Shown here one piece after another: positions 33,669-62,415 of a stretch of DNA of 64,000 nucleotides. Below the pieces are notes generated by a model, which was not told where the DNA came from, did not search any database, and saw only the letters and a program-made list of their open reading frames with translations. The position numbers and the translations under genes were made by a program. How positions within the stretch are numbered: the stretch's first letter is position 1; each line of letters begins with the position of its first letter. This stretch comes from Nocardiopsis mwathae (GTDB lineage: Bacteria; Actinomycetota; Actinomycetes; Streptosporangiales; Streptosporangiaceae): the NCBI RefSeq assembly GCF_014201195.1, contig NZ_JACHDS010000001.1, positions 4,898,001-4,962,000 on the forward strand, read 5' to 3'.

Positions 33669-33802
33669 AGTGTGGCACGGCGGGCTTCGCCGCGTGGAGG
33701 CGGAGCGGCCGAAGGAGAGCACAGCGGCGGCACAGGGGAGAGAACGCGAAAAGACCCCGATCGGGGAGAACCAACTCCACCGAACCGGGGTCTTCCTCAG
33801 TG

Positions 33803-33885
33803 TGGGCGAGGAGGGATTTGAACCCTCACATCCTTTCGGACACACGGACCTGAACCGTGCGCGTCTACCGTTCCGCCACCCGCCC
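33803..33885 (-). tRNA. tRNA-Leu (CAG)
   Basis: Minus-strand fold: acceptor GGGCGGG pairs with CTCGCCC (discriminator A). The anticodon stem CACGG/CCGTG encloses TTCAGGT, giving anticodon CAG. A long variable arm (GTGTCCGAAAGGATGT) marks a class II tRNA, and the T arm is GAGGGTTCAAATCCCTC. CCA is not encoded. A tRNA-Leu next to fhaA is conserved in this chromosomal neighbourhood in other actinobacteria. Confidence 0.95.
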
Positions 33886-38506: not shown

Positions 38507-39941
38507 ACACGCCCATCCGACGCCTCGCCGTCTTCGTTCTCGCACTGTTCGGCGTGCTGATGCTGAACGCCACCTGGCTGCAGCTGTTCCACGCCGACGC
38601 GCTGCGCACCCACGAGTTCAACGGCAGACAGTTCGCCGACCGGCTCAAGGAGCCGCGCGGCACGATCTTCGCCGCCAACGAGACCAAGGTCGCCGAGTCC
38701 GAGCCGGTCGGAGGCGACAGCGACAACCTGCAGCGCGAGTACCCCGGGGGTCCGCTGTACGCCCACGTCGTGGGCACGTTCAGCCCCACCGGCGCCACCG
38801 GCATCGAGGAGGCGCAGAACGCCCTGCTCACCGGCGACGACGACCGGCTCGCGGTGCGGAACTTCGTCGACACGCTCACCGGCAACGAGCGCGAGGGCGC
38901 CAGCGTCGAGCTGACCATCGACCCCAAGGTGCAGGAGGCCGCGCTGGAGGGGCTGAGCGCGCTCGGCAAGAACGGCGCCGCGGTCGCGCTCGACCCGAAG
39001 ACCGGTGCCGTCCTCGCCTCGGTCAGCGTCCCCACGTTCGACCCCAACGAGGTCACCAGCGTCACCGACCCCGAGGACTCCCTGAAGAAGTGGAACGAGC
39101 TGGAGCAGGACAGCGACAAGCCGCTGCTCAACCGCGCGTTCAACGAGCGCTACCCGCCGGGCTCGACGTTCAAGGTGGTCACCGCGGCCGCCGCCCTGGA
39201 GGACGGGGCCACCCCGGAGTCCACCAAGGACGCCCCCGCCTCGCTCGACCTGGGTGCCCCGCTGCCCAACGCGTGGGGCGGGCCGTGCAACGGGGGGCAG
39301 CCTGACTCGCTCGCGCACTCCATCGAGCAGTCCTGCAACACCTCCATGGCGAACTGGGCGATCGATCTGGGCGGCCAGAAGCTGTCCGACCAGGCCACGG
39401 CGTTCGGATTCAACAGCGGCAAGGTGCAGACGCCGCTGGAGGCCGTCGAGAGCCTGTCCCCCGCAGAGACCGACCGCAACACCCTTGGCCGCGCAGGCAT
39501 CGGCCAGGGCAACAACGAGGCGACCCCGCTGCAGATGGCCATGGTCGCCGCCGGCATCGCCAATAAGGGTGAGGTCATGAAGCCCTACCTGGTGGAGTCG
39601 GTCAAGGATTCCGACGCGTCCGTCGTCGAGTCGGCCCAGCAGGAGAAGTTGTCCACCGCCGTCAGCGCCAAGACCGCCCAGGAGCTGACCGACATGATGG
39701 TCCTGGTCACCGAGGGCCAGGACGCATCCGCCCCGGGCGCGCAGATCCCGGGGGTGCAGGTGGCCGGCAAGACCGGTACGGCCGAGGTCGGCGACGGATC
39801 CACGCACAACTGGTTCATCTCCTTCGCCCCCGCGAACGATCCCAAGATCGCCGTCGCGGTCGTCGTGGAGCGGGGCAACGACAGCGGTGGCCGGGCCGCC
39901 GCTCCCGTCGCGAAGAAGATGATGGAAGCGGTGATCAACGA

Positions 39942-39945
<4 letters not shown>
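38503..39945 (+). CDS. pbpA: Class B penicillin-binding protein PbpA, copy 1
   Basis: This 480-residue transpeptidase is anchored by one N-terminal helix (LAVFVLALFGVLMLNATWL). The catalytic motifs are STFK (near residue 224, in PPGSTFKVVT), SCN (near 277, in EQSCNTSMANWA) and KTGTAE (near 423). It crosslinks new peptidoglycan and is the expected partner of the RodA encoded just before it. The stop overlaps the pknA start (GTGA). A related copy lies at 43214-44674. Confidence 0.94.
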
Positions 39946-41663: not shown

Positions 41664-41813
41664 GGAGCGACGGGGTGGCGTCGGGCGGAGCTCAGGCTTA
41701 GAGCGGGGCGGACGGGGACATATAGATCGGTGTGAGTGGATCACTCACACGGCCGCACGGTCGGCAGGCCGGCCGGTGCGCACGGTCGGCACAATGCCCT
41801 GGCGGAGGCCGTC

Positions 41814-43217
41814 GTGGCTGCATCTTCTACCGCACTTCCGCAGGTCAAACGGCGCAACGCCGAACTGGTGATGACGGTCTTCGCCATCGCCATCACACTG
41901 TTCGCGATGGTCGAGGCGGGGCTGACCCGCAACGGGGAGATCCCGCCCGACCTCGCCCTGTTCGGCGGCCTCTTCGGGGGGCTGGCGCTCCTCGCGCACG
42001 TCTTCATCCGCTTCTTCGCCCCGTGGTCCGACCCGCTGCTGTTACCCCTGGCCGTCCTGCTCAACGGCCTGGGCATCGCGATGCTGTGGCGGCTGTTCGA
42101 GGCCACCGGCGACACGGAGAGCGGCAGCGCGTCGAACCAGCTGATGCTGACCGCGCTCAGCATGGCGGTCTTCGCCGGGATCGTGTTTTTCCTCAAGGAC
42201 CCGCGCAAACTGCAGCGCTACCCCTACCTCATGGCGGTGGGGGCGGTGCTGCTGCTCATGCTGCCGCTGCTGCCCGACCCGATCGGGCGGACGGTCAACG
42301 GCGCACGGCAGTGGGTGAACTTCGGCTTCACCGCACTGCAGCCCTCGGAGTTCGCCAAGATCGCGCTGATCATCTTCCTGTCGGGGTACATGGTCACCAA
42401 GCGGGACGCGATGGCGCTGGTGAACCGGCAGATCAGGGTGGGGTCCGTCAAGCTGCTGGGGCTGCCCCGGCTGCGCGACACCGCGCCGATGGCGTTCATG
42501 TGGGGTTTCTGCATCATCGTGCTGGTCGGCCTGATGAACGACCTGGGCACCGCGCTGCTGCTGTTCGGCACCTTCCTGGCGATGGTGTACGTGGCCACGC
42601 ACCGGGCCTCGTGGATCGTCCTGGGCCTGGTGCCGTTCTTCGCGGCCTGCTATGCGCTGTACTTCGTCGTCCCGCACTTCCGCGTGCGGGTCAACACGTG
42701 GCTGCACCCGTTCGAGCCGGGCATCATCGACGGTCCGGTGGGCGGCAACAGTGAGCAGCTGGTCCGCGGACTGTTCGCGATGGCCGAGGGCGGGGTGGTC
42801 GGCACCGGGTTGGGCGGCGGCCAGCCGGGGTTCGTCCCCGAGGTGCAGAACGACTTCATCTTCTCCGCGTTCGCCGAGGAGCTGGGCCTCACCGGCGTGA
42901 TGACGATCCTGCTGGTGCTGATGCTGCTGGTGGAGCGGGGGCTGCGGATCGCGCTGGCGTCCCAGGAGCTGTTCGTCAAGATGTGCGCCTCGGGGCTGGC
43001 GTTCCTGCTGGGCTTCCAGACCTTCGTGGTCATCGGCGGGGTCACCCGGGTCATCCCGCTGACCGGCGCGACCATCCCGTTCGTCGCCAAGGGCGGGTCG
43101 GCGCTGCTGTCGAGCTGGATCATCCTGGCCCTGCTCGTGCGGATGAGCAACAACGCGCGCAAGCCGGGACCCCAGGCTCTCCAGGACGAGGGGTCGACGC
43201 AGGTGATCTCGCGATGA
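41814..43217 (+). CDS. SEDS-family peptidoglycan polymerase RodA/FtsW, copy 2
   Basis: This roughly 467-residue protein is closely similar to copy 1 along its length. It shares blocks such as TRNGEIPPDLALFGGLFGG, GARQWVNFGFTALQPSEFAK and NDLGTALLLFGTFLAMVYVA. GTG at 41814 follows GGAGG at six bases; an ATG at 41736 in frame is less well supported. Its stop overlaps the second pbpA (ATGA). It appears intact, so a functional duplicate is likely. Confidence 0.92.
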   Translation: MAASSTALPQVKRRNAELVMTVFAIAITLFAMVEAGLTRNGEIPPDLALFGGLFGGLALLAHVFIRFFAPWSDPLLLPLAVLLNGLGIAMLWRLFEATGDTESGSASNQLMLTALSMAVFAGIVFFLKDPRKLQRYPYLMAVGAVLLLMLPLLPDPIGRTVNGARQWVNFGFTALQPSEFAKIALIIFLSGYMVTKRDAMALVNRQIRVGSVKLLGLPRLRDTAPMAFMWGFCIIVLVGLMNDLGTALLLFGTFLAMVYVATHRASWIVLGLVPFFAACYALYFVVPHFRVRVNTWLHPFEPGIIDGPVGGNSEQLVRGLFAMAEGGVVGTGLGGGQPGFVPEVQNDFIFSAFAEELGLTGVMTILLVLMLLVERGLRIALASQELFVKMCASGLAFLLGFQTFVVIGGVTRVIPLTGATIPFVAKGGSALLSSWIILALLVRMSNNARKPGPQALQDEGSTQVISR

Positions 43218-44674
43218 ACCGGTCGATCCGCAGGCTCTCGGTGTTCCTTATGGCGCTGTTCGTGGTGCTGCTCCTCAACGTCACCTGGATCCAGGGTTTC
43301 CAGGCCGAGGAGCTGCGGGAGAACGAGCACAACACCCGCCGCTACCTGGATCGGTTGCAGGAGCCGCGGGGGCCGATCGTCATCGGGGAGACGCGGGCGG
43401 CGTACTCCACGCCGCTGGAGAGCACGAGCGGCGGCGGCCAGGTGCGCTACCAGCGCGAGTACCCCGAGGGGCCGCTGTACTCCCACGTCGTGGGCACGTT
43501 CCGGACCACCGGCGCCTCGGGGATCGAGGACAGCGAGAACGAGCTGCTCAACGGCACCGACGACCGGCTCGCGGTGCGCAACCTCATCGACCTGCTCACC
43601 GGGGAGCGGCCCACCGGCGCGACCGTCGCCCTGACCCTCGACCCCGCCGCACAGCGGGCCGCCCGGGACGGCTTGGCGCAGCTGGGCCGCAACGGGGCGG
43701 CCGTCGCCCTGGATCCGTCGACCGGGGCGGTACTGGCCGCCTACTCCGCGCCCACCTTCGACCCCGGCGAGGTCACCAGCGTGACGCACCCGCAGGCAGC
43801 GGCGGATCGCTGGGAGCAGCTGTCCGCGGCCGACAGCCAGCCGCTCCTCAACCGGGCGTTCAACCAGACCTACCCGCCGGGTTCGGCGTTCAAGATCGTC
43901 ACCGCCGCAGCGGCGCTGGAGAACGGGGCGACCCCGGAATCCACCCAGCCCGCGCCGGCCGTGCTGGCCCTCCCCCAGGGCGGGACCCTCCCCAACGCGT
44001 TCAGCGGACCGTGCAACGACGGCGCCCCCGACACTCTGGCGCACTCCATCGAGATCTCCTGCAATACCTCGATGGCCAACTGGGCCCTGGCGCTCGGCGA
44101 GGACGAGATGCGCGAGCAGGCCGAGCGCTTCGGCTTCGACCGCCCCGGGCTGGAGATCCCGTCCCCCGTCGCCCAGAGCGTGTATCCGACGGGGATGGGC
44201 GGCAGCAGCCTCGCGCAGACCGGGATCGGCCAGTTCGACGTGCGGGCCACTCCGCTGCAGATGGCGATGGTCGCCGCGGGTGTCGCCAACGGCGGCGAGG
44301 TCATGAGGCCCTATCTCGTGGACCGGATCGCCGACGCCGACCTGGAGCCCATCATGCGGACGCGGCCGGAGGCGTACGGCGAGGCGATGAGCGCGCACAC
44401 CGCCGAGCAGCTGACGCGCATGATGGTCAGCGTCACCGAGGGCGCCCAGGGATCCGGGCGCTCGGCCGCGATCCCGGGGGTGCAGGTGGCGGGGAAGACC
44501 GGGACGGCGGAGACGAGCGGGCCGACGCACAACTGGTTCATCGCCTTCGCCCCGGCGGACGACCCCCGGGTGGCGGTGGCGGTCGTGGTCGAGCACGGCG
44601 GCGGCAGCGGGGGGACGCTGGCCGCACCCATCGCGCGGTCGATCATCCAGGCCGTACTGGACGCGCCCTCCTGA
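43214..44674 (+). CDS. Class B penicillin-binding protein PbpA, copy 2
   Basis: This 486-residue transpeptidase has an N-terminal anchor (LSVFLMALFVVLLLNVTWI). Motifs are SAFK (near residue 224), SCN (near 282) and KTGTAE (near 428). It is paralogous to the protein at 38503-39945 but more diverged than the RodA pair: the region around LYSHVVGTFRTTGASGIEDS is alike, the segment following the N-terminal anchor is not. All catalytic residues are present. Confidence 0.92.
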   Translation: MNRSIRRLSVFLMALFVVLLLNVTWIQGFQAEELRENEHNTRRYLDRLQEPRGPIVIGETRAAYSTPLESTSGGGQVRYQREYPEGPLYSHVVGTFRTTGASGIEDSENELLNGTDDRLAVRNLIDLLTGERPTGATVALTLDPAAQRAARDGLAQLGRNGAAVALDPSTGAVLAAYSAPTFDPGEVTSVTHPQAAADRWEQLSAADSQPLLNRAFNQTYPPGSAFKIVTAAAALENGATPESTQPAPAVLALPQGGTLPNAFSGPCNDGAPDTLAHSIEISCNTSMANWALALGEDEMREQAERFGFDRPGLEIPSPVAQSVYPTGMGGSSLAQTGIGQFDVRATPLQMAMVAAGVANGGEVMRPYLVDRIADADLEPIMRTRPEAYGEAMSAHTAEQLTRMMVSVTEGAQGSGRSAAIPGVQVAGKTGTAETSGPTHNWFIAFAPADDPRVAVAVVVEHGGGSGGTLAAPIARSIIQAVLDAPS

Positions 44675-50620: not shown

Positions 50621-50910
50621 TCCTCACAGACCACCGGATACCGCGCCCAAGGCCCGGCGGGACAAAGTCCTCCCACACTCAATGCTCCCCTCCATAATGC
50701 GCCCGGCCCGCCGGCCAGACCATGGGGGATAGCCCTGAGAAGACCCTGGTTCACCTGAGGACCAGTGCCGACGATAGTCGGATGCGCACCCACAACCATG
50801 TGGAGGGGAGTCCGGATGTGCTCGATGAAGCCAATACCTCGGGTGTCTAGCCTCCAGAACCAAGCAACAACCTGCACGTGAGGCGGAGATCCAGATCCGT
50901 CAAGAGGACG

Positions 50911-51831
50911 TCACAGACTCAGCATGCGCAATGGCCCGGTGCGGGTGATTTCGACGATCCGTTCGGCGGTGAGCCCTGCCTCGGTGAAGCAGCGCTGCGT
51001 CCAGTCCATCCAGGGCCCTATGTCCATCTGGGATGGCTGGCCAAGGTCGGAGCTGTACACCACCCTGGGAAGGCGGGAGAGAACGGCGGCGAAGTCAGAC
51101 CAGCTCTGGTAATCGAGCAGCCGCGTGAGCGCGGTCTGCTCCGCCCACACCTGATCCGGTGCGGCTACCTCCACAAGGTCCTGGTAGGCCAGCCCGGTCA
51201 TGGGATTGGCCGGCTGGTTGAGCAAGAGACGGGGCAGGTCCAGCCGTACCGCCTCCTCGACCAGCAGCCGTACCTCATATCCGTTGCTATGGCCGGTGGA
51301 GATGACTATCGGCAAGTCGCGGGCGGCGTGCAGCAGTGCACGGACGTCGCGGCGAAGAACTCGACCATCTTGAGTGACGGTCAGCGGGCGTAGGCCTTCG
51401 GCCAACAGTGGGTGTGAGGGGCTTCGGCGCAGGCGGCTGCGGTGGGCACGGCCGGTGACTGTGGGCAAGTGGACGATCAGGCGCAGTCCGCTGTCGTCAC
51501 CGTGCTGGATGACAGCCTGCTCCACTGCCCGCAGGTCAAAGCCGCCAGCGAGATCGTTGAGCACGAGTGAGCCGGAGACGGGGAGGCCTTGCTGTCGGGC
51601 CTCCCATGCCTGGGCAGCAGTCGAGCCGAGGTGGTTCTTCAGAACGACCCAGCCGCCGTGCTCCGCGTAGATCGCAGCGGCAGTGGCGGCATGATGGCGA
51701 CGCACGTACGCGTCCGGTCCGACGTGGTAGTGGACGTCGATGAAGCGCGCTTCGTAGGCAGAAAGCTGGTCGGTCTGTGCAGTGAGGCAGTCGCCCTTTC
51801 CTGCCTCAGCAGACTCAGAGGTCACCATCAT
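50911..51831 (-). CDS. DUF6282-like amidohydrolase-type metal hydrolase
   Basis: This roughly 306-residue protein shows amidohydrolase-like features: FIDVHYHVGPDAYVRRHH (HxH metal motif), WVVLKNHLGSTAA, VISTGHSNGYEVRLLVEEAV, and a late Asp in RVVYSSDLGQPSQMDIGPW. DUF6282 is my best match by pattern. The reaction is unknown; hydrolysis or decarboxylation of a small acid fits the neighbours. ATG at 51831 follows GGGAGGACGGGGG and overlaps the RraA-like gene by 17 bases. It is the last gene of the operon. Confidence 0.72.
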   Translation of the reverse strand: MMVTSESAEAGKGDCLTAQTDQLSAYEARFIDVHYHVGPDAYVRRHHAATAAAIYAEHGGWVVLKNHLGSTAAQAWEARQQGLPVSGSLVLNDLAGGFDLRAVEQAVIQHGDDSGLRLIVHLPTVTGRAHRSRLRRSPSHPLLAEGLRPLTVTQDGRVLRRDVRALLHAARDLPIVISTGHSNGYEVRLLVEEAVRLDLPRLLLNQPANPMTGLAYQDLVEVAAPDQVWAEQTALTRLLDYQSWSDFAAVLSRLPRVVYSSDLGQPSQMDIGPWMDWTQRCFTEAGLTAERIVEITRTGPLRMLSL

Positions 51832-52537
51832 CGCCCCCGTCCTCCCACGGCCGCGCGTAGCCGAAGCGGGCGCGTGCCGCGTCCAGCCTGCTGCCACCAA
51901 GGACAGCTCGGCGGATACGGGACTCCGTACGTTCCACAGCTTCGGCACGTCGGATGACTTCCGGAAGCGCAGAAGCTGGGATGCGCAGCGCCCCGTTGTC
52001 GTCAGCGAACACCCAGTCACCCGGCGCGACCACCGTGCCCTCGATGTCTACCTGCACACCGGTGCGGTCCAGCACGACGCGGTTCTTACCGCTGACCATC
52101 GTCACTGCCGTACTGAACAGCGGGTAGCCCAGGGCACGGCCTTCTCGCACATCTCGTACCGAGCCGTTCACGACCGTACCTGCCACGCCGTTTTCCTGGG
52201 CGACCGTGCTGAGTAGGGAGCCCCAGTTGGTACAGGTGCGGCTGCCGCCATTGTCAACGACGATGACCGAGCCGGCGGGTACTTCATCGATGTAGTTGGC
52301 GGCATTGCGAAAACCGGCAGTGTCCGCAACGGGCCGATAGCGGACGGTGAACGCGGGTCCGCAAGCCACGGTGCCCGGGGTTCGGGGTCTGATATGGGGC
52401 AGCATGAACGGTGCGGCGTGCAGACTGTCCATGGCGTGGAGACTGTCCATCGCGTCGGAGACAGCGGCCGTGTCCAGCCGGGACATTCGCTCGCGTAGCG
52501 CTTCGAAGTCAGGGTGTGCGGGAGCAAGAGCAGTCAT
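51815..52537 (-). CDS. RraA-family HMG/CHA-type aldolase or decarboxylase
   Basis: This 240-residue RraA-fold protein has SVIVVDNGGSRTCTNWGSLL, VAGTVVNGSVRDVREGRALG (the Arg-Asp-x-x-Glu aldolase motif) and FADDNGALRIPAS. Enzymes with this motif cleave 4-hydroxy-4-methyl-2-oxoglutarate-type keto acids or decarboxylate oxaloacetate. That makes it an enzyme rather than an RNase E inhibitor. A six-residue block, MDSLHA, is tandemly repeated near residue 30. It overlaps its neighbours by four and 17 bases. Confidence 0.85.
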   Translation of the reverse strand: MTALAPAHPDFEALRERMSRLDTAAVSDAMDSLHAMDSLHAAPFMLPHIRPRTPGTVACGPAFTVRYRPVADTAGFRNAANYIDEVPAGSVIVVDNGGSRTCTNWGSLLSTVAQENGVAGTVVNGSVRDVREGRALGYPLFSTAVTMVSGKNRVVLDRTGVQVDIEGTVVAPGDWVFADDNGALRIPASALPEVIRRAEAVERTESRIRRAVLGGSRLDAARARFGYARPWEDGGDDGDL

Positions 52538-54744
52538 TCGGATACCTCCGGGACGCGGTGGTCAGTGAGGTGCCGGACAACGGACCATCCAGCAAACTCG
52601 GTGAAGTAGGTGCCGACCTCGGCTCCGCGATTGGGAATGGTCAGTCCACGTGTGCGCTCGCCGGATGCGTCGCGAACCGTACAGCTCAGGGCGACTGTGC
52701 CGGTGTAGTTCTCGCGGTCCCCGTCCTGCCATGTCCCGGACAGGGCGACGCTGAGGGTCTGCGAGCCGCTGCTACGGCGTTCCTCGGCCAGCTTGGCAGC
52801 GAAGGCGCCTTCAGTGAGCTGGTCATCGATGTCCAGCGCCAGGTCGTGTTGGTCCAACAGCAGTGCCAACTCCTGGACAGCCGTGCGGTGCTGGTCGGTA
52901 ACGATGTAGTCCATCAGCGCGGAGTCCACGCGCTTAGCGAGGGTGCCGACCGCGTCTGCCGAGCCGTCCAGCCGGATATCGACGTACGGGTAGTGCCAGC
53001 GATAGGCCGACTTGATCGGCAGCCGACTGTCCCGAACAAGCTCGTCCACCAAAGCCGCCACATCTGCCTCGATGATGCCGAGCGTGCGCCGGAAGACCGT
53101 GGTCCTCTCGGGCTGGCGAGGCAGGTGTGCGAGGGCCTCGTGCATTGCCTCCGCCAGCATCGGGAGGCATTCCCGGGGCGGGCCAGGAAGCATGATCACT
53201 ACGCTCCCCTGGGCCTCGGCGCGGCATCCCCATGCCGACCCGTTGGGGTTCGGGAGCAGCTCGGCGCCCTCAGGGAACAGGGCTTGGCGGCGGTTGTCGA
53301 CGTGGATAGCGACACCGAAGCGGGTAAGGCGTTCCACGACACCCTGCCAGGCTCGCTCTCTGTGCTCCAGGGGACGATTGAGCGCGCGGGCTACGGCACT
53401 GCGGGTCACATCATCCGAAGTGGGGCCAAGTCCCCCCATGACCACGATGACGTCGTCGCGCCCGAGGCAGCCTTGGATCGTGTCCGAGATCGCGGCCTCG
53501 TCGTCGCGGACGGTGTGGCGAACTCGGACCGCAATCCCGTGCTCGCCGAGTACCCGTGAAGCGTTCCTTCCATTGGAGTCCTCCAGGTCACCGCTGAGGA
53601 GCTCGTCACCGATGGACAGGATCGCGGCCGTGGGCATGTCCGGCGCCGAACGACAGGCGTCGATGATTGACGCTGCTGCCTCGGTCGTCGTGGCGGTACC
53701 GCCGAGATCGTAGGTCACCCGGTCGCGGCGGCGGGCCACGTGCCTTACGGCCTCCTGAATGCCCTCGGCCTCACTGGCAAAGCCGAGATGCTCCAGCATC
53801 AGACCGATGGTCAGGAACGCGGCAGCAGGGTTGGCGCGCCCCTGACCTGCCATGGCCGGGGCACTGCCGTGCACCGGCTCGAAGTAGCCGCCGGCTTCGC
53901 CGATGTTGGCGCTGGCGGCCAGACCCAGCCCACCCATGACGCCACCGCCGAGGTCGGAGAGGATGTCACCGAACATGTTCTCGGCAACAACGACGCCGAA
54001 GCGTTCAGGACGACGCACCATCCACAACGCGACCGCGTCCACATTGAGCACCTCAGAGATGATCTCCGGGTAGTCCGCGGCGATCGTCTCCAGACGCTGG
54101 CGGACGTAGGCGCTGCTATGCCGTAGAACGTTGGGCTTGTCTGCGAGAGTGACCCGCTCGTAGCCACGGTGACGGGCGGTTTCGAAGGCGAACCGCAGGA
54201 TGCGGTCCAAGCCGTGCGATGTCTGAAGGCGGATGCTGGCCGTGGTGTCGGCATGACCGCTGCGGAGCACGTTGGGATGTTCGGCGACCAGGGGCCACAT
54301 CTCGTCCGGTACGTCGCGGAAATCGAGACCCGCATACAGCCCCTCTGTGTTCTCCCGGACCACGCAGAAGCGGTAGGGAGTACCGCCGCCGAGGTAGTTC
54401 TCCACGGGGCGAAGGTTTGCGAACAGGTCCAGTTGCTGGCGCAGTTGGATGATCGGCGAGACATACTGCGCCCCGCGCTTGCGCAGTTCGGGCTCCAGTT
54501 GCGCTGCTGCCTCGCGAGGCGGCTTACTCGTGGTGGCTCCCAGCAGAACGGCGTCGCTGCGGCTGATCAGCTCCCATGTGCGGTCCGGCACGGGGTTTCC
54601 CTCTGCGCGCCAGCACTCCCAACCGATGTCGCCGAATTCCAGATCGAGGGGTACGCCGAGGTACTCGATCACCGGAAGCGCGGCATCCAGGACTTCCGGC
54701 CCGATCCCATCACCAGGCAGTACTGCGATGGTCTTGCGGTTCAT
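52534..54744 (-). CDS. Isopropylmalate/isocitrate-type dehydrogenase fused to CinA-like domain
   Basis: This 736-residue fusion begins with a beta-decarboxylating dehydrogenase (about residues 1-368): VLPGDGIGPEV, VVRENTEGLYAG, ENMFGDILSDLGGG and EPVHGSAPAMAGQGRANP. From MPTAAILSIGDELLSGDLED a CinA/MoaB-type domain follows: VVMGGLGPTSDDVTRSAVAR, LPNPNGSAWGC and VIMLPGPPRECLP. The last 110 residues only weakly recall a CinA amidase domain. The frame is open across the junction, with no stop or frameshift. Tartrate/malate-type substrates are possible for the first half. I know of no established role for this pairing. Confidence 0.87.
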   Translation of the reverse strand: MNRKTIAVLPGDGIGPEVLDAALPVIEYLGVPLDLEFGDIGWECWRAEGNPVPDRTWELISRSDAVLLGATTSKPPREAAAQLEPELRKRGAQYVSPIIQLRQQLDLFANLRPVENYLGGGTPYRFCVVRENTEGLYAGLDFRDVPDEMWPLVAEHPNVLRSGHADTTASIRLQTSHGLDRILRFAFETARHRGYERVTLADKPNVLRHSSAYVRQRLETIAADYPEIISEVLNVDAVALWMVRRPERFGVVVAENMFGDILSDLGGGVMGGLGLAASANIGEAGGYFEPVHGSAPAMAGQGRANPAAAFLTIGLMLEHLGFASEAEGIQEAVRHVARRRDRVTYDLGGTATTTEAAASIIDACRSAPDMPTAAILSIGDELLSGDLEDSNGRNASRVLGEHGIAVRVRHTVRDDEAAISDTIQGCLGRDDVIVVMGGLGPTSDDVTRSAVARALNRPLEHRERAWQGVVERLTRFGVAIHVDNRRQALFPEGAELLPNPNGSAWGCRAEAQGSVVIMLPGPPRECLPMLAEAMHEALAHLPRQPERTTVFRRTLGIIEADVAALVDELVRDSRLPIKSAYRWHYPYVDIRLDGSADAVGTLAKRVDSALMDYIVTDQHRTAVQELALLLDQHDLALDIDDQLTEGAFAAKLAEERRSSGSQTLSVALSGTWQDGDRENYTGTVALSCTVRDASGERTRGLTIPNRGAEVGTYFTEFAGWSVVRHLTDHRVPEVSE

Positions 54745-55580
54745 GTTTTGTCGTTTTCTACAAATTGAGCAACGGCGTTGCTGGTCAGGTCAGGTTGGTC
54801 CGCCCACGGACGCATACCCGCACGTGGGATACCCGTGTACCCGTGGTTCGACTGTGTCCCGGTGGCGAGGTGCGTGCGCTGTACGAGCAGCGACTGTTCG
54901 CCGTACACGTGCAGCAGAGATCCAGGGAAGCCCCGGACACTGGAACGGACATCGAGATCGCGCAGGAGCCGCAGGCCTGCGGCCAGTCGTCGGCCTGCTC
55001 GCTCCTGCTCATGCGAATCCGGTCGCTCAATGCTGTCGCTGTCGCGACCCGACCCGACGCCCTCCGGCTGGTGGTCAGGGCCCCTCACGACCTCACCGAG
55101 CCGACGCAGCGCTGCGGCCAAGCCGCACGTTCCAACGGTGGCGGCGATCCCTTCCAGCCTGGAATTCAGAGCGTCGTCGGCGACGGTGGGGGCGGACAGG
55201 AGCAGGACCTTCGCCTGGTGCGTCCATTCCTGAGCGAGGATCGACTGTACGACCGCCCCGCCAAGCGCGTTTCCGACCAGAACGTCTGGCGCGGCGTCAC
55301 TGCTCGACGCGAGCAGCCGCACCCACCGATCCGCCAGGGTGCCCAGGTCATCGCCCTCTCTCCAGATCGACAGCGTGTCGTACACGGTGATCCGGTGCCC
55401 CGAACCGAGCAGGGATTCTGCGATGCGCTGGAAGAAAGCGCCATGGTCCCAACGGGGCAGCACTGGACTCAGGACAACCGCGTGGAGCGGTGCACCACCC
55501 TCGCCAAGGAGAAGGCGGGCAGGCACAGCGGTCGGGTTCTCCACCTGCACAGGTCCCGCTACCGGAGGACGTGGCGTCAC
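54741..55580 (-). CDS. Alpha/beta-hydrolase-fold protein lacking the serine nucleophile
   Basis: This 279-residue protein has the alpha/beta-hydrolase plan: HAVVLSPVLPRWDHGAFFQR, VYDTLSIW, then DVLVGNALGGAVVQSI at the nucleophile elbow and LLHVYGEQSLLVQ late. The elbow reads G-N-A-L-G instead of G-x-S-x-G, so the nucleophile is replaced by Ala. No catalytic His is obvious at the C-terminus. A non-hydrolytic or binding role is likely. It overlaps both neighbours by four bases. Confidence 0.72.
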   Translation of the reverse strand: MTPRPPVAGPVQVENPTAVPARLLLGEGGAPLHAVVLSPVLPRWDHGAFFQRIAESLLGSGHRITVYDTLSIWREGDDLGTLADRWVRLLASSSDAAPDVLVGNALGGAVVQSILAQEWTHQAKVLLLSAPTVADDALNSRLEGIAATVGTCGLAAALRRLGEVVRGPDHQPEGVGSGRDSDSIERPDSHEQERAGRRLAAGLRLLRDLDVRSSVRGFPGSLLHVYGEQSLLVQRTHLATGTQSNHGYTGIPRAGMRPWADQPDLTSNAVAQFVENDKT

Positions 55581-56509
55581 CGGGCCCCCGCAGCCTTCAG
55601 TTCGCGAGCTGCCGAGAAGGCGTCACCGATCCAATGCGTGGGCAGCTTGCTGCGCTCTTCGACGGACAGGTCGAAGTGACCCAGGATCAGGTCAGGCAAT
55701 GGAAGAGAAGGCACGGCCTCTTCGAATTCCGCCTCCATGCCATGGGCGAGACTCAGGATTCGGCCCAGGTCATATCCCTGTCCCCGCCCGTGGCGAGCGA
55801 GGTAGGCGACCCATTGTTCAGTGACGAGGTTGCCCGGCCCCTTACCCATCCCGAGCACGGAGGAGTCGATCCAGGTCGCTCCCGCATCCACCGCGGCAAT
55901 CGCGTTGGAAAGCGCCAGACCGAGGTTGTTGTGCGCGTGCAGGCCGATAGCCGCATCGGTCACCGACCGGACCAGAGTGACAAGTTCGGATACCTCATGC
56001 GGTAGCAGGCTGCCATTGGAGTCGGCCAGGTATACGACGTCAGCACCAGCATCACCGGACATCGCAGCGAGCTCCGCCAGTCGACGTCGCGGAAGTTGGC
56101 TGACTCGCGTGATGTTGACAGTGGTACTGAAGCCAAGGTCTGCGGCCTGCGAAAGCATGGCCAAACCAGGTCCGGGCGCGCCGGACGGCAGGCAGAACCG
56201 CACTAGCCGGATGCCGGCCTCGTACATACGAGGCAGGTCGTCCTCCGTGATGTTCTTGGGGTGGAGGATCATACAGAGTCGTTCCGGGGCGACCACGTCG
56301 GCAATCGCACGAATGTAGTCGTCTGCTCCCAACCCGGTGATGCCGATATCTGGCATGGGCTTGAATGAACCGTTCCGATATCCGATCTCGATCCACTCCA
56401 TCCCCGCAGCGGCACTCTCCTTGGCATGGCGAATCGCGTAGTCGAGTGGGAATTCAAAGTTGTTCCTGTATCCACCGTCGCGCAGAGTGACGTCAAGATT
56501 GGTAATCAT
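55577..56509 (-). CDS. HMGL-like (DmpG-type) aldolase/synthase
   Basis: This 310-residue TIM-barrel enzyme has the metal and substrate signature DVTLRDGGYRNNFEF, SNGSLLPHEVSELV, and GLHAHNNLGLALSNAIAAVD (HxH metal site), then DSSVLGMGKGPGN. Relatives include 4-hydroxy-2-oxovalerate aldolase, HMG-CoA lyase and homocitrate synthase. The NLDVTLRDGGYRN start resembles the aldolase branch. ATG at 56509 follows GGAGGGA. It is the first gene of the operon. The C-terminal DmpG communication domain appears absent. Confidence 0.85.
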   Translation of the reverse strand: MITNLDVTLRDGGYRNNFEFPLDYAIRHAKESAAAGMEWIEIGYRNGSFKPMPDIGITGLGADDYIRAIADVVAPERLCMILHPKNITEDDLPRMYEAGIRLVRFCLPSGAPGPGLAMLSQAADLGFSTTVNITRVSQLPRRRLAELAAMSGDAGADVVYLADSNGSLLPHEVSELVTLVRSVTDAAIGLHAHNNLGLALSNAIAAVDAGATWIDSSVLGMGKGPGNLVTEQWVAYLARHGRGQGYDLGRILSLAHGMEAEFEEAVPSLPLPDLILGHFDLSVEERSKLPTHWIGDAFSAARELKAAGAR

Positions 56510-57242
56510 TTTCCCTCCATATGACCTCATCAGGTTCAATGCTTGGCCGAGGCGACTATGGCGGCTGACAAAGAATGTTCTCCGGCTATAACCAAGCCCA
56601 GCAGGGCAGCCCGCGAGAAATACCGTTGCCTCCGCCGAAACCGCCCACCTGGGCCCCTCGCCCGACGCTTCGACCTGCCTGCTTCTCGCACCGCCCCCAG
56701 ACTCAGGACACGCAGGCACCAGGCCACACGAACGCGAAGACCCGCTTGCGTGACCTCGCACTCCCCCTTGTGGCCCTCGATAGCAGCGGGACGCCCGTTC
56801 AGGATGCAAACCCCATCGACCGCAAGCGGATGAACTGTAAGCCAGAGACGACAAGCATGTCAACGAATGCAGACATTCCATCCGAATGCGTCAACTATGG
56901 CTGTCGCTGCGGGTGGGCCCTTTGGGCAGCTGAGGCCAGGAGTGGGGACCTTCGGGTGTTGCACCGACCTGGCGATTCGTCTGAGCATGAGCGTCGTCAC
57001 ATGGAGGGTCGCCCGACACAACCCAGCAGCACCGCCCGCCGCTGAGTAGAACCCAAGCTCATAGGCGTCCACCGCACCCGAACACCTCACCCTGGCCTCA
57101 TTAATCGCAATTCGTGATGAGTGTCAGCGCGATTTGCGTCTTGGACGTCACCTCACCTGCTGCTGAAGTGGTTCTCGCCGCCCCCGGTGGAGTAGCCGGG
57201 GGCCGCGTGTGATGAGACCACCCACGATCCCGGAGAATCCCG
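56510..57242. other. Gene-free divergent promoter region
   Basis: These 733 bases separate the minus-strand aldolase operon from the plus-strand tautomerase and MFS genes. No frame has recognisable features or a good ribosome-binding site. A LysR gene follows 1.7 kb downstream, so its operators may lie here, but I see no clear T-N11-A palindrome worth naming. Confidence 0.5.
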
Positions 57243-57440
57243 ATGCCTCTTATCCAGGTGCAGCAGACCCCCGGCAAGACCGCCGAGCAGAAGGCCGAAC
57301 TCGTCCGCGAACTGACCAACGCCTACGTACAGGCCACTGGCAGCAAGCCGGAAAGCGTGTGGGTGACCGTGCAGGAGATCGACACCGAAAGTTGGTCGAT
57401 CGCAGGAGAGACGCTCGCCGCCCGCGCCGCCAAGCGCTGA
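57243..57440 (+). CDS. 4-oxalocrotonate tautomerase-family protein
   Basis: This 65-residue tautomerase starts MPLIQVQQTPGKTAEQKAEL, exposing the catalytic Pro-1 after Met removal. The family's Arg near residue 11 is replaced by Gly/Lys (TPGKT). The C-terminal half has ESVWVTVQEIDTESWSIAGE. Family members convert enol and keto forms of unsaturated dicarboxylates or related acids. It is divergent from the aldolase operon and probably acts in the same pathway. Confidence 0.87.
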   Translation: MPLIQVQQTPGKTAEQKAELVRELTNAYVQATGSKPESVWVTVQEIDTESWSIAGETLAARAAKR

Positions 57441-57484
57441 TTCACCACTGATTGATCAGTGAGGCCAGGAGATTGACACGCTCG

Positions 57485-58750
57485 ATGAAGTCCTCCGAGA
57501 CAACACGCACGCCTTACGCCCTGCTGCTCGCAGTGCTGTGCTCCCTCAACGCCGGAGGGCTGTTCGCCTCCGACATCAACTTGCCAGGGGTGCCGGCCAC
57601 CGCGCACGCCTTGGACACTCCGGTCGCGTCGGTGCAATGGACGTTCAGCGCCTTCATGATCGGTATCGCGATCTCACAGGCGGTCTACGGGCCGATCTCG
57701 GACGCCTACGGGCGCAAGCGTGTCATCGTCTCAGGACTCGGCCTGTTCGTCCTGGCCTCACTGGTGTGCGCGGCGGCGCCGACTGTCGAGGTCTTCGCCG
57801 CGGGGCGGCTGTTGCAGGCCCTCGGCGCCGGATCCGGCATGGTCCTCGGTCGGGCGGTGATCAGTGATCTCTACGACGAGAAGGACGCGGCGCGAATGTT
57901 CGCCACGGTCATGCCGATCGTGGGCGTCTCCCCGTCCATCGCCCCCCTCATCGGTGGCTACCTGACCACGTACGTGTCCTGGCGCGCTCCGTTCCTGGTC
58001 ACCGCACTGATCGGGTTGGCAACGCTGGTCGTCATGGCGCGCTCGATCCCCGAAAGCCTGCCGCCGGAACGCCGTAGCAGGCACCTGGGCGCCACGCTCC
58101 GGGGCTACCCCAGGCTGCTGGCCCAGCCCTTGTTCTGGGCCTACACCATGAACCTGGCAGTTGCCTACGGTGGCTACTTCGGGTACCTCGCCGCCTCGCC
58201 CCTGGTCTTCGAACGAATGGGTCTCGCCACCGAAACCACCAGCTACTGCTACATCACCGTCTCGATCGCCTACGTGGTGGGGAACCTCTCCTCGCGCAGG
58301 CTCGTCCGCACCCGACCCATCAACCAGTTGCTGTGGCTTGGTCACGGATTCTTCTTCGCCGGCGCACTGATGATGCTGGGCCTGGGCATCGCGGGAGTCG
58401 GCGCACCCTGGGGTCTGCTGGTGCTGGTCTTCATGCCGGTGATGACCTTCGGCAACGGGTTCCTGCTCCCGCTGTCGATGAGTGCGGGCGTAACTGCTTT
58501 CCGCACGGCGGCGGGCTCGGCCTCTGGGCTGATGGGAGCATTGCAACTCCTGGGTGCATCGCTGGGGATCTACCTCTCCAGCCTGCTGCCGGCCGGCGAC
58601 CTGTTCGCTCTGGGCTGGTTCGTGGTGGGAGCCTCGCTCGTGGGAATCGCGGCCTTTGCGGTGTTCCTCTCGCAAGCCGCACAACGGGCCACTACGCAAC
58701 CAACCGGAGGAGAGCCAACGCACACCATTGCCCCCAGAGGGGATCAGTAG
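57485..58750 (+). CDS. MFS transporter, Bcr/CflA type
   Basis: This roughly 421-residue protein has twelve transmembrane helices. It contains the loop 2-3 motif GPISDAYGRKRVIVSGL and the LQALGAGSGMVLGRAVISDL segment typical of drug/H+ antiporters of the Bcr/CflA group. It would export a small molecule, either the pathway's product or a toxic intermediate, though import cannot be ruled out. ATG at 57485 and an upstream in-frame TTG are both possible starts. Confidence 0.87.
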   Translation: MKSSETTRTPYALLLAVLCSLNAGGLFASDINLPGVPATAHALDTPVASVQWTFSAFMIGIAISQAVYGPISDAYGRKRVIVSGLGLFVLASLVCAAAPTVEVFAAGRLLQALGAGSGMVLGRAVISDLYDEKDAARMFATVMPIVGVSPSIAPLIGGYLTTYVSWRAPFLVTALIGLATLVVMARSIPESLPPERRSRHLGATLRGYPRLLAQPLFWAYTMNLAVAYGGYFGYLAASPLVFERMGLATETTSYCYITVSIAYVVGNLSSRRLVRTRPINQLLWLGHGFFFAGALMMLGLGIAGVGAPWGLLVLVFMPVMTFGNGFLLPLSMSAGVTAFRTAAGSASGLMGALQLLGASLGIYLSSLLPAGDLFALGWFVVGASLVGIAAFAVFLSQAAQRATTQPTGGEPTHTIAPRGDQ

Positions 58751-58986
58751 GCGCTCCCAGCATCTCGACGCATGGAGTGACCGACATCATTCCAAGGTTT
58801 CGCAGTGAGCCAACGTACCCTGTACACAGGTCGTCGAAGAGCACAGTCATCTCCTGGTATGTTCTCGATCATGCGAACTCCCCACCCGGGGTTCCGGGTT
58901 TCGCTGCACGACTGAAAAGGCGGCGAGCGTCATTGGATGGCACTCCCGGCCAGTAGAGACAAGGTCGGAGAAAATGCGGGGATTCA

Positions 58987-59943
58987 GTGGAACTACGGCA
59001 GATCCAGTACTTCGTCGCCGTCGCTGAGCAGTTGCATTTCGGACGAGCGGCGGAACAGCTACACATAGGGCAGCCCACAGTCAGTCAACAGGTGCGTCGG
59101 TTGGAGCGCGAATTACGCACTCAGCTCTTCGATCGCTCCACCCGCACGGTCAGCCTCACCCCGGCCGGTCAGGCCCTGCTTCCCGAGGCTCGCGAACTGC
59201 TCACGGCCCTGGACTCCCTCACCGCCAAGGCTCAGCACCTGGCCGCCTCTGATACGACCACTTTTCGTGTCGGAATCGGCTCTGCCGTAGGACAGCGCCT
59301 GGACGACTTCCTCGATGCGCTGACCACCGCCAGTAACGGCGCATGCTTCGAGTTCCAGACGCTTCCGGCACGTACTCGCCTGGAGCAGTTGCGCGCGGGG
59401 CGACTGGACGCGGCGTTCATCCGTGGTATCGACAGTGCCCCGGGTCTGCGGCTTCTCCCACTGTGGTGCGACCCCATGGTGGTCGCACTACCGGCATCAC
59501 ACCCCCGGGCCGCCGAGTCCCGATTGGACTTGGCGGACCTGGCCGAGCTGCCACTGCTTGTGGCCTCCCGCACTGCGAACCCGGTGCTTTTCGAAACCGT
59601 GACCGCAGCCTGTCGCAAGGCGGGTTTCGAGCCGACCGTTGGTCCTCCCTCAACCGGGTTACAGGACACCCTGGCCGGAATCAGCGCCGGCACACCGGGC
59701 TGGACCCCGATCTACCCGACAGCGGTCAACGCGGTCTCCTCCCGTCGAGTGATGGTGCTCCCTCTCGACGGAGATCCCATCACGATTCGGATGTCTCTCG
59801 CACTTCGGGAAGATGCAGATCCCAACCTCATGGAATTGCTCGCCACGGCCAGTGCCCAACTCCGAGATACGATCGCGCGCGAGGGCGAGACGTGTGCTGA
59901 ATTGACACCAGAGGTTTCGGGCAGTAACGAAATACGCACCTGA
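58987..59943 (+). CDS. LysR-family transcriptional regulator
   Basis: This 318-residue regulator has an N-terminal winged helix (MELRQIQYFVAVAEQLHFGR, AAEQLHIGQPTVSQQVRRLE) and a C-terminal effector-binding domain (from about residue 90, FRVGIGSAVGQRL). It is the only regulator next to the aldolase operon and MFS gene, so it is their likely controller. It is on the same strand as MFS with a gap of about 235 bases. Confidence 0.92.
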   Translation: MELRQIQYFVAVAEQLHFGRAAEQLHIGQPTVSQQVRRLERELRTQLFDRSTRTVSLTPAGQALLPEARELLTALDSLTAKAQHLAASDTTTFRVGIGSAVGQRLDDFLDALTTASNGACFEFQTLPARTRLEQLRAGRLDAAFIRGIDSAPGLRLLPLWCDPMVVALPASHPRAAESRLDLADLAELPLLVASRTANPVLFETVTAACRKAGFEPTVGPPSTGLQDTLAGISAGTPGWTPIYPTAVNAVSSRRVMVLPLDGDPITIRMSLALREDADPNLMELLATASAQLRDTIAREGETCAELTPEVSGSNEIRT

Positions 59944-60220: not shown

Positions 60221-60652
60221 GTGGTGAGCGTGGCTGACAGCATGACCGACGAGCAGGACACGTTCGCCGCTCGGCTGCAGAGGTTGTTTCACGTGGTCCC
60301 GCGCCCGCCCGAGAAGGGTGGCGGTAGCTACTCGGTGGCCGAGGTCGCATCCGGTGTCGGCGTCAGCCGACAGCACCTCTACGACCTGTTGTCCGGTAAG
60401 AAGCAGCGGCCCGCGTGGGAGCTGGTCAACAACATCGCGAATTTCTTCGGCGTCTCGGTGGTCTACTTCGGCGACGACACAGCAGCAGAAGAGTACGCAC
60501 AACAGTTGGAACTGCTGGTTGCCCTTGGCAAGTCAGACGTCAAGGATATAGCACTGCGCCTGGGGCAGCTGTCTCCCCAGCACCGTGGGCTACTGATGAA
60601 CATGATGGAGCAGCTTCAGTCCCTGGAACAGGACGATGCTGATCAGGATTGA
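60221..60652 (+). CDS. XRE-family regulator (EspR-like)
   Basis: This 143-residue protein has a helix-turn-helix (YSVAEVASGVGVSRQHLYDL, LLSGKKQRP) followed by PAWELVNNIANFFGVSVVYF. A helical C-terminal dimerisation part follows. The arrangement resembles EspR and the XRE proteins found beside ImmA/IrrE peptidases. Upstream direct repeats CAGGTAGT (60174 and 60196) may be its operator. It is convergent with the membrane-protein gene. Start among several GTG codons is uncertain. Confidence 0.85.
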   Translation: MVSVADSMTDEQDTFAARLQRLFHVVPRPPEKGGGSYSVAEVASGVGVSRQHLYDLLSGKKQRPAWELVNNIANFFGVSVVYFGDDTAAEEYAQQLELLVALGKSDVKDIALRLGQLSPQHRGLLMNMMEQLQSLEQDDADQD

Positions 60653-60736
60653 ATCGGATTCACAGCAATGAGGACAGCCAGCACCAGAAAACGCAGTTTG
60701 CTTTCGTTATTCAGATCAGGCGGACCTGCTGACCTC

Positions 60737-61882
60737 CTATACGGCACTGTTTCCGACGCGATCAGAAAACTTCCTCCAGGCGCAGGCCAACGCAAGCAAT
60801 TCCTGAACATCTGCCTCCATCCCGGAGACCGCCGGGGCGGCGATAACGGATGCCTCCGAAACGGGCCCCCGTCCCTCTGATCGGCGTACGATAGCATCCC
60901 GCACAAGCTCTGCTTGTCGGATAATCGTTTTGTCGTCGCCAAGGTCAGCAATGTAGGGGCTGAGCGATACAAGGCCATCGCGGCACTCGATGATCCTCCG
61001 ATAGTAACGGAACCGCATAGACCGGAAATGCAGCATCTCCCGCAAGGGGTGCACCGGAGGAAAGAGCGCGATTTCGGGAAATTGCGAGGACAGCGCCGAC
61101 CATAGCGGGCGCAATTTACGGTAGTCGCGGCGAGCCTCAAACCAGAGTCGTATTTTCACGACGAGTGTTCGCCCCCCGGGATATCCAATCCCGACAAAGA
61201 ATGCGATTATGCCAATCGCCAAGATGGGGGTTGTCCATGTTTCTGTACCAGGAATCGGATCGATGCCCAACAGAAGCCGTCCCGACGTAGAAACTACGCG
61301 TGGGATATGGGTACCGATACAGTTCACTGCCAGTCCCGCAGAGGCCAGACGGAGACTCAGACGAGCACGCGACCGGGTGTGGTCGGACGCGGTCCACGCG
61401 AGGTGAGCACCACGCGCCGTCGCATAGCTCATGTACAGATTCCCAAGCGCATAGAACGCCAGTAGTCCCGGAGTCTGGCCAGCGTCTTCATAATTCACGG
61501 CCCCAACGTCGGAATCGATCGAGGCGAATGTGCTGATCAGTGCGAGGCAGGTCAGTAGTGCAATGGCAACCTCGATCCAGCCATGTTTCGGCTTGGCGAC
61601 TGGAGAAACGGCAGACTGCAGCAAGACAATGAGCAACGCGAAGAAGAGCGTCAGAATTACATTCTGAATGAGCTTAGGCGACTGACCCGGAAATACCTCG
61701 GAAGATCCAGCCGCACCGACCATGAGTTGCGCCGATAGCGCCAGGAAAACCATGACAGTGCAAACTACGACGATCCGAAGCCAGTTATCGCGCGGAACGC
61801 GAACAAGCTGGACTAGTTTCCACATGGCAGCAAGGCCGGAAGCAGCCCACATAAGGAGATTCGGCAAAAACATCATAGCCAC
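60737..61882 (-). CDS. Multi-TM protein, MAB_1171c / DUF6545-like
   Basis: This 381-residue protein has about seven N-terminal transmembrane helices (LLMWAASGLAAMWKLVQL, IVVVCTVMVFLALSAQLMVG, VILTLFFALLIVLLQSAV and further). A cytosolic C-terminal domain follows with LRPLWSALSSQFPEIALFPP and FRYYRRIIECRDGLVSLSPY. This is the pattern of the actinobacterial MAB_1171c-type putative transporters. Function is unknown. Its start overlaps the ImmA/IrrE gene by ten bases, so the two are coupled. Codon use is less GC-rich than in the core genes. Confidence 0.82.
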   Translation of the reverse strand: MAMMFLPNLLMWAASGLAAMWKLVQLVRVPRDNWLRIVVVCTVMVFLALSAQLMVGAAGSSEVFPGQSPKLIQNVILTLFFALLIVLLQSAVSPVAKPKHGWIEVAIALLTCLALISTFASIDSDVGAVNYEDAGQTPGLLAFYALGNLYMSYATARGAHLAWTASDHTRSRARLSLRLASAGLAVNCIGTHIPRVVSTSGRLLLGIDPIPGTETWTTPILAIGIIAFFVGIGYPGGRTLVVKIRLWFEARRDYRKLRPLWSALSSQFPEIALFPPVHPLREMLHFRSMRFRYYRRIIECRDGLVSLSPYIADLGDDKTIIRQAELVRDAIVRRSEGRGPVSEASVIAAPAVSGMEADVQELLALACAWRKFSDRVGNSAV

Positions 61883-62415
61883 CCTTGGTGATCATCGAAT
61901 GCGGATCGAAGCCGTCGGGCGGAATGTGTCTTCCGATCCGGAGAGAACTTTAATCGTTCGAGCAGGGTCGACCACTCTTTTATGACTGTCGCTACCATCT
62001 CAGCTTCGCGCTCGTGCTCGGGGCCGTAGCCGTCTCGCATCAGTATGCGTCGAATCAACTCGGGAGGAAGGTCCGGAAACACCTGACTCCATAGGTCGGC
62101 GTCGTTTTTATTTCCACCGTGGCCACTTATGATATGGCCAATCTCATGCAGAATAATGTGATCTTGGTGGGCAGGCGTTGTTTCTTTTTGGTAATAGATA
62201 TGATCTGCCTGCGCTGTGCCTACCCACAACCCAAATGCTCCGGGCACCGGTAATGGGTGAGGAACAAGCTTGATCGGGCGTCCGCGATGCTCACCCAACC
62301 GCTCACATAGCACACGAACATCCAGGGGCGCATCGAGATCCAGTTGACGCAGAAGCTGTTTCACACCACGTCGAAGCTGAAGATCATTGCGCCAGCCTCT
62401 GGCATCACCTTTCAT
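61873..62415 (-). CDS. ImmA/IrrE-family metallopeptidase
   Basis: This 180-residue protein has the zinc motif HIILHEIGHIISGHGG (HExxH) and a downstream glutamate-containing helix (EHEREAEMVATVIKEW). Short members cleave an XRE-type repressor to trigger a response; the XRE protein at 60221-60652 is a candidate target. The C-terminal 30 residues are basic. It overlaps the hydrolase gene upstream by 11 bases and the multi-TM gene downstream by ten. Confidence 0.88.
   Translation of the reverse strand: MKGDARGWRNDLQLRRGVKQLLRQLDLDAPLDVRVLCERLGEHRGRPIKLVPHPLPVPGAFGLWVGTAQADHIYYQKETTPAHQDHIILHEIGHIISGHGGNKNDADLWSQVFPDLPPELIRRILMRDGYGPEHEREAEMVATVIKEWSTLLERLKFSPDRKTHSARRLRSAFDDHQGWL

Follow-up and report, generated by a model that had tools for sequence, protein, structure and literature searches.

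A co-inherited five-gene enzyme module with a dehydrogenase–CinA fusion in Nocardiopsis mwathae, tentatively read as a pathway to an exported small polycarboxylic acid

The DNA analysed here, referred to as the window, is a stretch of 64,000 nucleotides of the Nocardiopsis mwathae genome (contig NZ_JACHDS010000001.1), in which five minus-strand genes run from 56509 to 50911 and overlap by 4, 4, 4 and 17 bases; their order, coordinates and overlaps are those of a preliminary description made from the sequence. The genes encode an HMGL-type aldolase, an alpha/beta-hydrolase-fold protein (ABH), a dehydrogenase fused to CinA, an RraA-like protein and a DUF6282 protein, and these five enzymes are one co-inherited module that is real and widespread. 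On the opposite strand lie, as that description also stated, a tautomerase, a major facilitator superfamily (MFS) exporter and a LysR regulator. The features are as follows.

55577..56509, minus strand: HMGL/DmpG-like aldolase (HMGL), 310 residues, first core gene; PF00682, E 4e-32; ATG start with GGAGGG ahead
54741..55580, minus strand: ABH, alpha/beta-hydrolase-fold protein without the classical Ser-His pair, 279 residues; assigned by the fold of its model; overlap of 4 with HMGL
52534..54744, minus strand: dehydrogenase-CinA fusion, 736 residues, whole gene; overlap of 4 with ABH
53647..54744, minus strand: dehydrogenase half of the fusion, residues 1-366; PF00180, 270 bits; 6lky, 3asj/1x0l homoisocitrate dehydrogenase
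52534..53646, minus strand: CinA half of the fusion, residues 367-736; PF00994, 104.8 bits; 4ct8, E 1e-31
51815..52537, minus strand: RraA-like protein (RraA), 240 residues; PF03737, E 2.5e-36; overlap of 4 with the dehydrogenase-CinA gene
50911..51831, minus strand: DUF6282 amidohydrolase-fold protein, 306 residues; PF19799, E 1.9e-46; ATG at 51831 with GGAGG ahead; overlap of 17 with RraA
57243..57440, plus strand: 4-oxalocrotonate-tautomerase-type protein with a Met-Pro start, 65 residues; PF01361, E 1.9e-15
57485..58750, plus strand: Bcr/CflA-family MFS transporter; MFS_1, TIGR00710; ATG at 57485, a longer open reading frame from TTG at 57452
58987..59943, plus strand: LysR-type regulator; PF00126 and PF03466

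The third gene had been described as a beta-decarboxylating dehydrogenase, which is right for its first half, but the CinA (COG1058 pyrophosphatase) domain of the fusion had been overlooked. Residues 1-366 resemble isocitrate, homoisocitrate and isopropylmalate dehydrogenases (PF00180 cut-off 27 bits). The domain and the catalytic residues place this half in the beta-decarboxylating Iso_dh family, with which it shares the fold and R102, R112, R130, Y137, K203, D236, D260 and D264, residues that we take to be catalytic. In contrast to these dehydrogenases, the window protein is fused to CinA and its operon contains no isomerase or acyl-CoA synthase; none of the curated cut-offs for named dehydrogenases (LeuB, AksF, Icd and tartrate dehydrogenase) is reached among the 25 top rows, the best being AksF2 at 289.6 of 540 bits. 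The coenzyme site is without the Asp of the NAD-type relatives and keeps the Tyr of the motif TYD, presumably a feature of NADP enzymes.

In the second half, residues 374-540 form the COG1058/MoCF domain (PF00994, E 4e-30, cut-off 26.6 bits), and the best solved relative is Thermus thermophilus CinA, matched over residues 5-288 of 370. The GGLGPT-DD motif is shared with the CinA proteins of T. thermophilus and Mycobacterium tuberculosis, but in the window protein the PncC deamidase part is short and degenerate and a dehydrogenase is fused on. Hence the pyrophosphatase domain is intact, whereas the score for full-length CinA including the deamidase (TIGR00200) stops at 128.8 of 243 bits, with a match over 3-298 of 414. 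The fused domain is the only COG1058 copy in the host genome; there is a PncC-type match at another site, and one further match is marginal.

Two unlike aldolase families had been proposed from the sequence, and both were recovered. HMGL belongs to the DRE-TIM/HMGL superfamily by its score (112 bits against a cut-off of 29) and by the metal-site residues D11, H191 and H193, which, like R10, are invariant in the 31 rows compared; its closest structures are 3dxi, a putative aldolase, and 1nvm. As in the meta-cleavage pathways of the DmpG/DmpF type, the window HMGL falls in the 4-hydroxy-2-oxovalerate aldolase group, but it reaches only 141 of the 286 bits of the equivalog model TIGR03217, and the acylating aldehyde dehydrogenase is not among the seven window proteins scanned. 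RraA is a member of the RraA-like superfamily (125.6 bits against 24.5), with R128-D129 invariant in 31 rows, an Arg-Asp motif that we take to be the mark of this superfamily. Its score for the LigK/PcmE aldolase model TIGR02798 is 76.6 of 304.5 bits, and its closest structure, 3k4i (profile E 5e-98), is named 'uncharacterized protein' and is presumably a structural-genomics entry from Pseudomonas syringae.

The two remaining core proteins were characterized mainly through their predicted models. For ABH, the hydrolase fold previously described as inactive-looking, Pfam and NCBIfam give no match at E 0.001, and the family profile leads to BioH-type esterases (E 6e-6). Its model (mean pLDDT 90.3) is predicted to have an alpha/beta-hydrolase fold, close to 4q3l (Z 24.6, root-mean-square deviation (rmsd) 3.0, 253 aligned). 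The pair of Ser nucleophile and catalytic His, at positions that we assumed from the usual motifs, is missing: the nucleophile site holds Ala in 40 of 61 rows and Ser in 18, and the loop expected to hold the His has GMR instead of GH, with R257 in 59 of the 60 rows having a residue there. DUF6282 was foreseen as a metal-dependent hydrolase, and its model (mean pLDDT 95.7) agrees, resembling dihydroorotases, lactonases and 2-pyrone-4,6-dicarboxylate (PDC) hydrolases; matches include the dihydroorotase 2z00 (Z 19.1, rmsd 4.1, 248 aligned) and the PDC hydrolase 2ffi (Z 17.8, rmsd 3.1, 232 aligned). Because several fold families are nearly tied, the reaction is not fixed. The fold and the invariant H22, H24, H169 and D250, together with Lys53 in about 91% of rows, assign the protein to the amidohydrolase superfamily, whose metal ligands we take to be HxH, Lys, His and Asp.

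In the end steps of protocatechuate 4,5-cleavage, LigI and LigJ are amidohydrolase-type and LigK is an RraA-type enzyme. The window operon is similar in that RraA-like and amidohydrolase-fold proteins are adjacent, and even fused in one related locus (L039), and in the PDC-hydrolase-like fold of DUF6282. It differs in the RraA score, far under the LigK cut-off, in the absence of a dioxygenase, and in the additional dehydrogenase, HMGL, ABH and CinA.

The search for the same five-gene set in other genomes, which the preliminary description had suggested, found the core in several phyla with exchangeable accessory enzymes. A search with the fusion protein gave 576 relatives, of which the best 80 were taken as loci, and a core protein was counted when it exceeded 100 bits. 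All five core proteins occur together in 48 of the 80 loci, from Actinomycetota, Pseudomonadota and Bacteroidota; the remainder comprises 10 partial loci, some at a contig end, 12 decaying loci of Bartonella and 10 with the dehydrogenase only. The core was found in Streptomyces, Lentzea, Actinopolyspora, Pseudomonas, Burkholderia, Legionella, Pseudoalteromonas, Endozoicomonas, Citrobacter, Lonsdalea, Pseudosulfitobacter and a Pedobacter assembly, among other hosts; two loci (L024 and L025) have a split or short HMGL. One plasmid record carries the core (Legionella adelaidensis), and the window ABH as query found no plasmid record. A family missing from the alignment lists may still be present. 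In two Rhodospirillales assemblies (L046 and L068), the dehydrogenase carries only about 100 CinA residues and no ABH gene was detected in the locus. Stand-alone dehydrogenases of archaea and deep-branching bacteria (L072-L074 and L076-L080) share 43-46% identity with the first half of the fusion; the other four core genes are absent there, apart from a weak HMGL match in L077.

A separate retrieval with DUF6282 as query, independent of the first although several Streptomyces genomes are common to both, matched at least 13 of 392 Streptomyces genomes, a lower bound since six candidates were scored per genome, and all 13 carry the whole core. Nine of them belong to the CinA class and four to the second class defined below; one, G068, is the genome of locus L013 and contains one weaker DUF6282 match (E 4e-18). 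Furthermore, the pairwise distances of the five core proteins correlate with r of 0.78-0.95 when the window is compared together with the 48 loci (L082 was left out, as were loci lacking one or more of the five), a correlation to which kinship of the hosts contributes; for each of the ten pairs, the observed value was attained in 0 of 1000 permutations. The dehydrogenase and CinA are encoded in one frame in 33 of the 80 loci (the frame is broken in two more, both of Bartonella), dehydrogenase and RraA in 13, and RraA and DUF6282 in one. Since they are fused in relatives, the dehydrogenase, RraA and DUF6282 act in neighbouring steps. Single families are indeed common, with some dehydrogenase match in 58 of 60 host relatives and RraA matched by 822 plasmid records, which would favour a chance neighbourhood of common gene families; this explanation has virtually no standing, being contradicted by the co-occurrence in 13 of 13 genomes and 48 of 80 loci, the correlated divergence and the fusions.

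The loci fall into three classes. Class I carries the CinA fusion, and outside Bartonella an MFS gene like that of the window occurs in 18 of its 23 loci and an adjoining tautomerase in 12. Class II (17 of 80 loci) has a nitronate-monooxygenase/FabK-like enzyme (NMO) together with an ABM/YCII protein; 12 of its loci add a luciferase-like monooxygenase, and five an FAD enzyme, the closest family of which is the tricarballylate dehydrogenase TcuA. Class III (12 of 80 loci, and L082) is that of Legionella, with a cyanophycin-synthetase-like ATP-grasp gene. Genes for NMO, ABM, luciferase, flavin reductase and ATP-grasp occur in none of the 35 CinA loci. The FAD enzyme occurs in four of them (L001-L004); in contrast to TcuA, that of L001 stays under the cut-off at 344.8 of 369 bits, and the enzyme is absent from the window, where there is no room between the tautomerase and MFS genes. 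The earlier remark that no oxygenase is present is therefore true of the seven window proteins scanned, but not of the wider family, in which flavin-dependent enzymes are added in 17 of 80 loci; two-component flavin monooxygenase genes are also present in Pseudomonas relatives.

In Bartonella, the module is observed in stepwise decay. All twelve loci (L022, L023, L026-L031, L066, L067, L069 and L070) keep the dehydrogenase-CinA gene, while HMGL persists as short fragments only (L027, L030, L031 and L067) and RraA, searched in the loci, is reduced to a fragment in L022. Five loci (L022, L023, L066, L069 and L070) have a whole ABH, which is broken up or absent in the rest. DUF6282 is absent from all eight Bartonella genomes searched, with a model that found it in three of three positive-control genomes, and an HMGL search of eight genomes gave one fragment. 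Within the fusion, at least two of 11 checked dehydrogenase positions (catalytic residues) are changed in 7 of the 12 loci, whereas all 21 checked CinA positions are kept in 11, the twelfth (L070) being truncated. The mean ratio of nonsynonymous to synonymous substitution rates (dN/dS) of the dehydrogenase half is 0.106 in four loci keeping ABH (6 pairs) and 0.260 in five losing it (10 pairs), against 0.156 and 0.135 for the CinA half, the pairs not being independent. The CinA half thus evolves as a separable part that outlives the dehydrogenase half in Bartonella, and its conservation while the other half decays indicates a use of its own. Across 71 Bartonella genomes, 39 give a strong COG1058 match, 31 of these in frames of at least 700 residues, the length of the fusion; in many of the 71, the match is missing or decayed.

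In the host, the operon segment looks horizontally acquired. DNA similarity to the single congener compared breaks off at window position 50780, immediately ahead of the operon, without resuming in the 39.8 kb of the congener genome examined. The G+C content falls from 0.67-0.71 at 44-50 kb to 0.56-0.68 between 51 and 64 kb, a modest drop over the operon with the lowest values at 61-62 kb. Of 60 host relatives, one has the full-length fusion, and ABH was found in one of two genomes of the genus. For every core protein, the closest five relatives among the fetched loci all come from Streptomyces.

Several other features of the window were recorded. The stretch of lowest G+C adjoining the operon (60221-62415) encodes a regulator of the Cro/C1 type, a DUF6545 membrane protein and, without a Pfam match, a small protein that has a HEIGH metalloprotease-like motif. 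The sole tRNA of the window, tRNA-Leu (CAG) at 33802-33885, is about 17 kb away from the operon. Between 36812 and 44674, an FtsW/RodA-type and penicillin-binding-protein gene pair is present in two tandem copies (FtsW at 36812-38506 and 41736-43217, transpeptidase at 38503-39945 and 42983-44674), each followed by kinase-like genes.

The operon had been called uncharacterised, and a search of the open-access literature, incomplete in coverage so that absence is weak evidence, turned up no published cluster with the same genes; as far as searched, the five-gene module is undescribed. Phosphonate pathways and the Pantoea PNP clusters were considered and dropped, as no PEP mutase exists among the seven window proteins scanned, to which that search was confined and for which the preliminary description had said the same; the Pantoea cluster paper PMC7744662 contains neither the word 'aldolase' nor the word 'CinA'. 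Peptide synthetases, polyketide synthases and terpene enzymes are likewise absent from the seven.

Taken together, we tentatively favour a mobile specialised pathway leading to an exported small polycarboxylic acid, with the CinA half protecting the producer. HMGL would add a pyruvate-type enolate to an aldehyde or ketone; the dehydrogenase would oxidize and decarboxylate a 3-substituted-malate- or isocitrate-like acid; RraA would perform the next aldol or decarboxylation step; DUF6282 would close or open a lactone or cyclic amide; and ABH would act without classical Ser-His hydrolysis. The product may be of the tricarballylate, aconitate or oxalomesaconate type and would be exported by the MFS transporter. 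For the CinA half, we propose hydrolysis of a nucleotide pyrophosphate; the likeliest substrate is a damaged dinucleotide or coenzyme adduct to which the pathway or its product gives rise. The branched keto- or hydroxy-acid chemistry of the preliminary description fits these family resemblances, although molecule and direction are unproven; the polycarboxylate idea is suggested by such resemblances only, namely the homoisocitrate/isocitrate-type dehydrogenase, the LigK-type RraA, the TcuA-like FAD enzyme of relatives and the PDC-hydrolase-like fold. An MFS of drug-efflux type accompanies the CinA class, the window protein passing the cut-off of the Bcr/CflA efflux model TIGR00710 (245.8 against 200.9 bits). 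The patchy distribution among Streptomyces and host relatives and the edge of synteny were counted for mobility. A biosynthetic reading with CinA in repair or protection is favoured because of the literature on COG1058 and on M. tuberculosis CinA. COG1058 enzymes hydrolyse ADP-ribose best, one with some activity on Ap2A, FAD and NADH as well (PMC3680494), and in M. tuberculosis it is the pyrophosphatase domain of CinA rather than PncC that reduces drug-NAD adducts and gives tolerance (PMC9033802).

Several points weigh against this proposal. All named enzyme models stay below their curated cut-offs for the window enzymes, and LysR and MFS also fit uptake, so that the direction of the pathway, like its substrates and product, is something we only infer. 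The tested COG1058 enzymes leave NADP uncleaved (PMC3680494), while the coenzyme site of the window dehydrogenase is without the NAD-type Asp and keeps the Tyr of TYD, which is in tension with the substrates established for CinA. CinA is not needed for the core, since classes II and III do without it. In Bartonella, 8 of 8 genomes have no COG1058 copy other than this CinA, and 5 of the 12 loci (L027, L029, L030, L067 and L069) have a fragmented MFS gene or none, so that retention of CinA there may be simple co-option. The idea of CinA plus MFS as an immunity unit in Bartonella is weakened by the same two facts and counts as one option only.

The serious rival is a catabolic operon, in which LysR would sense an environmental branched or polycarboxylic acid, the MFS transporter would import it, and HMGL and RraA would act as retro-aldolases yielding pyruvate or oxaloacetate. 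Both enzymes resemble lower-pathway aldolases (DmpG- and LigK-type), a tautomerase and LysR regulators are present, TcuA, which the FAD enzyme of relatives resembles, serves tricarballylate use, and the two-component flavin monooxygenase genes of Pseudomonas point the same way. However, the window MFS is of a drug-efflux subfamily, the ATP-grasp gene joining the core in Legionella is amino-acid-ligase-like and suits making over breaking, and it is not obvious what a catabolic pathway would need the CinA fusion for; degradation is rated as the less likely of the two readings.

Other alternatives concern the CinA half. It could be a general ADP-ribose/NAD housekeeping enzyme, fused by happenstance and unrelated to the product, as its status as sole COG1058 copy in the host and in the eight Bartonella genomes, with a stand-alone PncC encoded elsewhere in both, would suggest; but the same operon carries the fusion in hosts as far apart as Streptomyces and Pedobacter, and COG1058 is missing or decayed in so many of the 71 Bartonella genomes that it is evidently dispensable there, which makes this account improbable. 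We give slightly less credence to CinA as a biosynthetic step that releases a covalent coenzyme product of the dehydrogenase half or a nucleotide-activated intermediate. The tight fusion in 33 of 80 loci and the absence of CinA wherever the other finishing enzymes occur argue for it, whereas the Bartonella CinA stays conserved after the dehydrogenase half has lost catalytic residues. Within the favoured proposal of a protective CinA, a more specific version is a long shot: the operon would make a small acid that poisons pyridine-nucleotide enzymes through covalent coenzyme adducts, in the manner of isoniazid, and the CinA fused to the producing dehydrogenase would be the immunity part that cleaves the adduct in place.

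The module, which as judged from the seven window proteins scanned lacks the usual marker enzymes of biosynthetic clusters, is spread over three or more phyla, and the finishing enzymes that accompany it vary. Knowing the product would give access to a whole family of small-molecule pathways and assign a function to DUF6282 and to the uncharacterised RraA structure 3k4i. Simultaneously, it would test whether CinA, known for drug tolerance, can protect its own producer.

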